Below, piece after piece: positions 1 to 1,514 of a DNA stretch of 64,000 bases (positions are counted from its first letter, which is position 1; every line of letters begins with the position of its first letter). The DNA is from Paracoccus sp. MA. GTDB lineage: Bacteria > Pseudomonadota > Alphaproteobacteria > Rhodobacterales > Rhodobacteraceae. The DNA is taken from the NCBI RefSeq assembly GCF_020990385.1, contig NZ_CP087598.1, positions 161,001 to 225,000 of the forward strand, in the 5' to 3' direction. Position numbers and translations under genes: made by a program. The notes beneath the pieces were generated by a model. The model was not told the origin of the DNA. It worked only from the letters and a program-made list of their open reading frames with translations, and made no database searches.

Positions 1-1514
1 TAGTTCTGCCAATAGCTGGTCTGGCCCGGCCGCAGCAGCTTGAAGCTGCGGCTGGACATGTAGGTCTGCCAGTCCGGCTCCTTCTCGGTCGGGATGTTCA
101 GATACCCGGGAATCAGGTTCGACATCAGCCCGATATCGGTCAGGCCCTGGATGTTCGAATGGCCGCGCAGCGCGTTCATCCCGCCGCCCCGGACGCCGAT
201 ATTGCCCAGGATCAGCTGCAGCATGGCCATGCCGCGGATGTTCTGCGCACCCTTGGCGTGCTGGGTCCAGCCAAGCGCATACATCGAGGTCATGGTCTTG
301 TCGGGCGCCGAACATTCGCCGATCATCTCGGCGATCTTCAGGAAGCGGTCCCGGGGCGTGCCGCAGACCTCCTCGACCAGCTCGGGCGTATAGCGCGAGA
401 CATGTTCCCTGAGCAGGTTCCAGACACAGCGCGGATGCTCCAGCGTCATGTCCACGGCGGCAAAGCCGTCCTCACCGATCACATAGTCCCAGCTCGACTT
501 GTCATAATCGCGCTTTTCGGGGTCGTAGCCGGTGAACAGCCCGTCGCTCCAGCCGTATTCATCCTTCACGATCAGGGGGGCGTTGGTGAAGTGGCGGACA
601 TAGTCCCATTGCACCTTGTCATTCTGGATCATCCAGTTGATCAGGCCCATCAGGAAGGCAATGTCCGAGCCGGGCCGGATCGGCGCATAATAGTCGGCCA
701 CCGAAGCCGTGCGGGTGAAGCGCGGGTCCACCACGATAAGCTTGGCGCCGCGGGCGGCCTTGGCCTCGGTCACCCATTTGAAGCCGCAGGGATGGGCTTC
801 GGCGGCATTGCCGCCCATGACGACCACGAGGTCGGTATTCTTGATGTCGGTCCAGGAGTTGGTCATCGCTCCACGGCCAAATGTCGGGCCCAAACTGGAC
901 ACCGTGGGGCCGTGTCAGACGCGCGCCTGGTTGTCGAATCCGACGATCCCCATGGACCTGACCACCTTGTAGGTCAGCCATGCGGTTTCATTGGTGGTGG
1001 CCGAGGCAGCCAGGAAACCGGTGGTGGTCCAGCGGTTGACCGGCACGCCGTCGTCGTTGGTCAGCACCATGTTGGCGTCGCGGTCGTCCTTGAGCGCGCG
1101 GGCGATCTTGTCCAGCGCCTCTTCCCAGGAGATCTCCTCGAAGCTGGCCGCGCCGGGCCGGCGGATGCGCGGCGTGGTCAGGCGCGTCTCGGCATTGACG
1201 AAATCCTTGAGCGCCGCGCCTTTCGGGCAAAGCGTGCCGCGGTTCGTCGGATGGTCGGCATCGCCTTCGATATGCATCACCTTGGCCTCTTCGCCGGCCT
1301 TCAGGTCGCCGTTCGAATAGATGATGATGCCGCAGGCCACCGAGCAATAGGGACAGGTGTTGCGCGTCTCGGTCGTCGAGGCCAGCTTGAAGGCACGCAC
1401 ATGCGCCTGCTCCGCCGCCTCCGCCCCGCCGAAGCCCATGGCCCCGAGCGATGTCGCCGCGACACCCGCGCCCGCCAGTTTCAGGAAACCGCGCCGCGAG
1501 AGGTCGATGTTCAT
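1..1514 (-). CDS. fdnG: Formate dehydrogenase-N alpha subunit, selenoprotein (3' part beyond window)
   Basis: Periplasmic molybdopterin (bis-MGD) enzyme that oxidises formate to CO2. The N-terminus carries a Tat signal (SRRGFLK, twin Arg at residues 7-8) and a 4Fe-4S site (CPYCSVACG, Cys54/57/61, and Cys96 in CPKG). Residue 200 is an in-frame UGA at 915-917 in the context ARV-UGA-HGPTV, which matches the selenocysteine of FdnG/FdoG. The same frame then stays open to base 1, giving FdnG-like sequence such as FGRGAMTNSW and VVVMGGNAAEAHPCGF. The start at 1514 has a strong AGGAGG about 7 nt upstream. About 505 residues are visible; the family is near 1000, so the C-terminal half and any beta and gamma subunits lie to the left. 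A naive gene caller would split it at the UGA. Confidence 0.93.
872..914 (-). promoter_or_regulatory. Bacterial SECIS stem-loop following the Sec UGA
   Basis: Directly 3' of the UGA codon (915-917), the mRNA can form a hairpin. A perfect 7-bp stem (CACGGCC with GGCCGTG, plus-strand 908-914 and 872-878) is topped by a 5-bp stem containing one G-U (898-902 with 881-885) and a 12-nt apical loop. Position and shape fit the SelB-binding SECIS of E. coli fdnG/fdhF. The folding was done by eye. Confidence 0.8.

Follow-up and report, generated by a model that had tools for sequence, protein, structure and literature searches.

At the left edge of the 64,000-nucleotide stretch of Paracoccus sp. MA DNA analyzed here (the window; G000:C2:161001-225000, from a 4.47 Mb assembly in three contigs), a gene that reads as the alpha subunit of a formate dehydrogenase (FDH) carries an in-frame TGA. 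Is this codon a stop, or is it decoded as selenocysteine (Sec), and which of the two SelB factors encoded in the genome would then read it? The features of the gene itself are as follows:

1..1514, minus strand: 5' part of the gene for formate dehydrogenase-N alpha (fdnG/fdoG-like; TIGR01553, 1380 bits), running on past the left window edge to C2:159431
915..917, minus strand: in-frame TGA, codon 200, predicted to be read as selenocysteine (from the reading frame and from TGA in 80/80 relatives)
1412..1514 (approximate extent), minus strand: putative N-terminal leader containing RRGFLK, a Tat-type motif (from reading the sequence)

The FDH alpha frame opens with an ATG at 1514 on the minus strand, and the RRGFLK of its leader is presumably a motif of the twin-arginine (Tat) export type. 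The initial annotation held that the frame stops at the UGA at 915-917 after codon 199 and that family sequence then continues in the same frame. Indeed, with TGA taken as Sec, the frame stays open down to base 3 of the window. One observation named as counting against Sec was a frame break beyond the left window edge; there is none, and the frame runs without another stop to C2:159431 (L009:11431), giving a total of 1027 residues. The TIGR01553 profile matches this protein with 1380 bits (cut-off 814.2) over residues 5-1019 of 1027, in a match that spans the UGA. Codon 200 lies between ARV and HGPTV, which bears out the Sec context ARVU-HGPTV recognized earlier. The further expectation, that automated annotation would shorten or split the gene, holds in part. 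In the ORF list made with table 11, FDH alpha does fall into two pieces, of 199 aa and 823 aa (the latter from a GTG). What annotators have done with the best 30 plasmid relatives is less clear-cut: 12 have an annotated fdnG under the match (a count of presence, not of span over the UGA), 16 have none and 2 records are unannotated, all according to a gene table that is incomplete.

The TGA is strongly conserved. Among the best 80 of 573 loci, which are 77-97% identical to the FDH gene, the Sec codon is TGA in all 80, and these TGA-bearing relatives range from Paracoccus to Roseomonas and Rhizobiales. Of the relatives with names, P. denitrificans, P. versutus and P. sp. MKU1 are the nearest, with 96-97% identity over residues 1-504.

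Directly downstream of the TGA lies a structured element, with nucleotides numbered from the U of UGA:

862..920, minus strand: bacterial SECIS, Rfam SECIS_3 (RF01989), 80.4 bits against a gathering score of 63, with compensatory changes
885..904, minus strand: upper SECIS hairpin, nucleotides 14-33, with unpaired U17 and apical A22-G23-U24 (from folding and covariation)

The match at 862-920 covers the full SECIS_3 model (E 9.5e-19), and a search of the genome found no other. The hairpin folds at -21.7 kcal/mol (z -2.66), a value equaled by 2 of 200 shuffles; as claimed, its stem begins with the first base past the UGA. In an alignment of 81 sequences, 34 of them distinct, the upper-helix pairs 18-30, 19-29, 20-28, 21-27 and 22-26 form in every one. 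Changes on both sides of the helix preserve pairing at 18-30 (GC to AT in 3 sequences), 19-29 (TG to GC in 19) and 21-27 (CG to GC in 12), and the apical AGU is invariant. Other pairs are kept less well: 5-45 in 64, 14-33 in 54, 9-41 in 77 and 8-42 in 79 of the 81. Third-position identity is 0.855 over codons 201-214 (10 codons) compared to 0.652 elsewhere (245 codons); by itself this measure cannot pick out the SECIS, as a stretch beginning around codon 327 scores 0.873.

These data dispose of the idea that the UGA is a true stop, created by a disabling mutation or a sequencing error in what is now a broken remnant: a frame that ends at the UGA by table 11 and an ORF list with two pieces are what it would predict, but the 1027-residue frame without another stop, the TGA at the same codon in 80/80 relatives (best 80 of 573 loci) and the covariation of the SECIS rule it out, and we assign it a very small probability.

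Does the genome encode the machinery for Sec? The initial annotation predicted selA, selB, selC and selD, and treated their absence as evidence against the reading; all four are present. Above the family cut-offs there are one tRNA-Sec, one SelA, one SelD and two SelBs. The tRNA-Sec gene, selC, lies at C2:154774-154865 (80.6 bits, TCA anticodon), SelA at C2:2342015 (525.6 bits), SelD at C2:54335 (428.1 bits) and the first SelB, SelB1, at C2:154923 (407.5 bits). Lower-scoring candidates for a second tRNA-Sec (11 in number, at most 46.8 bits) were rejected; 7 of them were run through ARAGORN and called as tRNA-Ser, -Leu, -Gly and -Ile, and the other 4 score at most 34.5 bits.

Two of these genes belong to the FDH cluster. 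On the minus strand, the order is FDH alpha, then beta-like, gamma-like and FdhE-like ORFs, SelB1 and selC; the names beta (iron-sulfur subunit), gamma (cytochrome b subunit) and FdhE come from reading the translations and not from a family scan. The SelB1 gene lies 2.6 kb downstream of the end of FDH alpha. Read on the strand of the FDH gene, the starts of selB1 and selC lie 4.2 kb and 6.1 kb, respectively, beyond the window's left edge. We also observed that selC (L009:6774-6868) begins at the base directly following the selB1 stop codon; a selC lying within selB or immediately behind it is already known from Alphaproteobacteria (PMC8124441).

The position of selA differs from that in most relatives. 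It is present in the flank examined at 69 of the 80 FDH loci and is missing from the cluster in our genome and in L010-L013 (P. sp. MKU1, P. versutus, P. kondratievae and P. denitrificans); the remaining 7 of the 80 loci without selA have no selB either in the flanks examined. The SelA encoded in our genome is unlinked to the cluster and is 57% identical to the SelA that adjoins SelB1 in another genome of the genus, G407. It adjoins ORFs (L104) that, by reading only, resemble a PhnCDE-like ABC transporter.

Compared to characterized systems, the gene itself holds no surprise. It shares with FdnG/FdoG (TIGR01553) the whole-chain match, the ARV-U-HGPTV context, a SECIS_3 element directly after the UGA and linked selB and selC; we found nothing different in the gene, the one departure being the placement of selA outside the cluster. 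The fdoGHI-selABC clusters of Alphaproteobacteria (PMC8124441, PMC1794560) likewise have fdh genes followed by selB and selC, and they differ from our cluster and those of L010-L013, which do not include selA. PMC1794560 also describes fdhA as the selenoprotein of such bacteria, with selA-selB-selC alongside.

The observation made in the initial annotation is thus confirmed, and the evidence supports its interpretation as right. The gene almost certainly encodes the alpha subunit of a membrane-bound, respiratory-type formate dehydrogenase in which active-site residue 200 is selenocysteine, inserted by means of SelB and a SECIS. In the mechanism we envisage, the ribosome would reach the UGA at codon 200, SelB1 carrying Sec-tRNA from the adjacent selC would bind the hairpin immediately following this codon, and Sec would be put in at the UGA in place of termination. 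We infer that the mature protein would have membrane partners and act on formate, and that SelB1, rather than SelB2, would serve it.

This last point has to be weighed against the second SelB, which is encoded outside the window on another contig, divergently from a gene related to the UGSC family:

C1:182658-184661 (L103:8658-10661), minus strand: second selB, 667 residues (SelB family, 367.3 bits against a cut-off of 242.25)
C1:184950-185984 (L103:10950-11984), plus strand: UGSC-type gene with an in-frame TGA at L103:11256-11258, VGVGC-U-GSC

Could Sec be inserted into FDH alpha with its SECIS read by SelB2, or with both copies sharing the task? Both proteins are full-length and score above the cut-off (407.5 and 367.3 bits). 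One SelB can evidently serve different selenoproteins, as in the 34 other genomes that combine UGSC-type genes with a single SelB. Against this, SelB1 is encoded in the FDH cluster and falls among the FDH-linked SelBs of relatives in our SelB tree (up to 91% identical), whereas SelB2 sits outside them on a branch of 1.53 changes per column. Moreover, 94 of the 97 SelB-positive genomes of the genus have only one SelB. We therefore consider it unlikely that SelB2 reads the FDH SECIS, alone or with SelB1, and retain SelB1 as the probable decoding factor.

The tree comprises 54 rows: 18 of 20 chosen FDH loci, 24 of 27 SelB loci of UGSC-positive genomes and 12 others. Left out were L072 and L077 (no SelB above 500 residues), L198 and L203 (none) and L208 (a duplicate of L214). 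The long branch of SelB2 outside the group of SelB1 rules out a recent duplicate of SelB1. The SelB2 proteins of G000 (our genome) and G407 are 97% identical, and the second SelB of a third genome, G510, has a branch of 1.49 changes per column; with branches this long, tree placement is unsure and no donor lineage can be named.

What might the second SelB be for? The protein encoded next to it scores 47.2 bits against the UGSC family (NF041046), below the cut-off of 125, and is a long, diverged UGSC relative that keeps the UGSC motif. The UGSC family is listed among selenoproteins in two reviews (PMC13188914, PMC9312934). About 12 kb from the UGSC-type gene lies a paralogue with Cys (L149:6481-7524, minus strand), 67% identical over residues 5-258 and with TGC at the position of the UGA. 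Such Sec/Cys pairs are a usual sign of a selenoprotein. As a separate observation, the match of the G000 copy of the Cys paralogue ends at residue 258-260, and that of the G407 copy (L145) extends to 342.

Two SelBs in one genome are rare. Within the genus, SelB is above the cut-off in 97 of 125 genomes and is present twice in three of them, G000, G407 and G510; in all three, the second SelB lies near a UGSC-type gene with a TGA. Two of the 125 genomes, G000 and G407, carry the long UGSC gene with one TGA, in both cases directly beside the second SelB. With SelB2 and the UGSC gene in common, these two may represent a single event. In G510, a short UGSC gene with a TGA (AN-U-GSCT) lies about 4.3 kb from the second SelB, and a second tRNA-Sec lies about 0.9 kb on its other side, with one ORF between. 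The two tRNA-Sec genes of G510 (L146:5633-5726 and L150:9733-9828) differ, and one lies near each selB copy. SelA is present once in G000, twice in G407 and once in G510. The genus search used the long protein as the query (E up to 1e-20), a setting that single-SelB genomes with a short UGSC gene may escape. Thioredoxin-reductase-like ORFs, so named by reading, also occur near UGSC and second-selB genes, at L146:5738-6655 in G510 and within L149:7973-9217 in G000.

At the level of the family, the long UGSC protein has matches (E up to 1e-20) in 5 of 394 genomes, which in four cases are confined to the last ~140 residues. In the class, SelB (E up to 1e-60) occurs in 55 of 385 genomes, and G000 alone has two, with three candidates scored per genome. 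Among plasmids, no relative of SelB2 (486 records) or of the UGSC-type protein (24 records) reaches 60% identity. Finally, we counted SelBs in 37 of the 39 other UGSC-positive genomes, leaving out the two weakest (G742 and G804): 34 have one SelB and 3 have none. Given the 34 genomes that manage with one, a second SelB is not needed in principle.

If SelB2 were dedicated to the UGSC-type gene, its UGA might be followed by a hairpin unlike that of FDH. The TGA-bearing UGSC site is found in 32 of 34 loci scanned. When we looked at 18 loci from other alphaproteobacterial genomes (L214 and L216-L232), TGA is followed by GSC in frame in 10 (L214, L220, L221 and L223-L229), and all 10 have a hairpin with a six-base loop starting with CGUG; L219 also matches the pattern, but outside the UGSC reading frame, and is not among the 10. 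At the same place in our genome, a candidate hairpin consists of G15-C33, G16-C32, C17-G31, unpaired U30, C18-G29, G19-C28 and C20-G27, with the loop CGUGAC. Folding 52 bases gives this hairpin in the minimum-energy structure; in a 42-base stretch, another fold wins. The Cys paralogue can form a similar hairpin. The loops of the two elements contrast, UGSC having C-G-U-G with GU at nucleotides 22-23 and FDH A-G-U with GU at 23-24. Several results speak against dedication of SelB2. In energy terms the hairpin in our genome is weak, as the sequence downstream of the UGSC UGA folds no better than shuffles (z +1.27, +1.00 and +1.49), and it is absent from Rfam: a scan of L103, the 20-kb stretch with selB2 and the UGSC-type gene, returned no family above its gathering score and no known SECIS. 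The one SECIS_3 match in the genome is that of FDH.

We tentatively propose that SelB2 is a dedicated second decoding factor. In full, SelB1 would read the FDH SECIS and a separately acquired, strongly diverged SelB2 would be dedicated to the divergent long UGSC-type protein, with one Sec-tRNA pool serving both and a different hairpin after the UGA; this is a tentative scheme, to which we give somewhat less than an even chance. Searches of open-licence PMC papers for two or duplicated SelBs turned up none on a second, dedicated SelB. The closest parallel is Photobacterium profundum 3TCK, another bacterium with more than one set of Sec genes; according to PMC5330540, it has two different complete operons, whereas our genome has a second selB with a single selA, selC and selD above the cut-offs.

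A Sec-containing formate dehydrogenase is a known kind of enzyme and the FDH gene is itself ordinary; its main importance is for correct annotation, the standard code breaking it into two pieces. The genomes that we searched have, as a rule, just one SelB, and the second selB matters more than the FDH gene if its pairing with the UGSC-type gene holds. If the proposal is true, this organism would harbor a natural pair of separate SelB-SECIS codes within one cell. Two factors preferring separate hairpins would make it possible to test, in a natural setting, which features of a SECIS are recognized by SelB, and independent selenocysteine codes could be developed from them.
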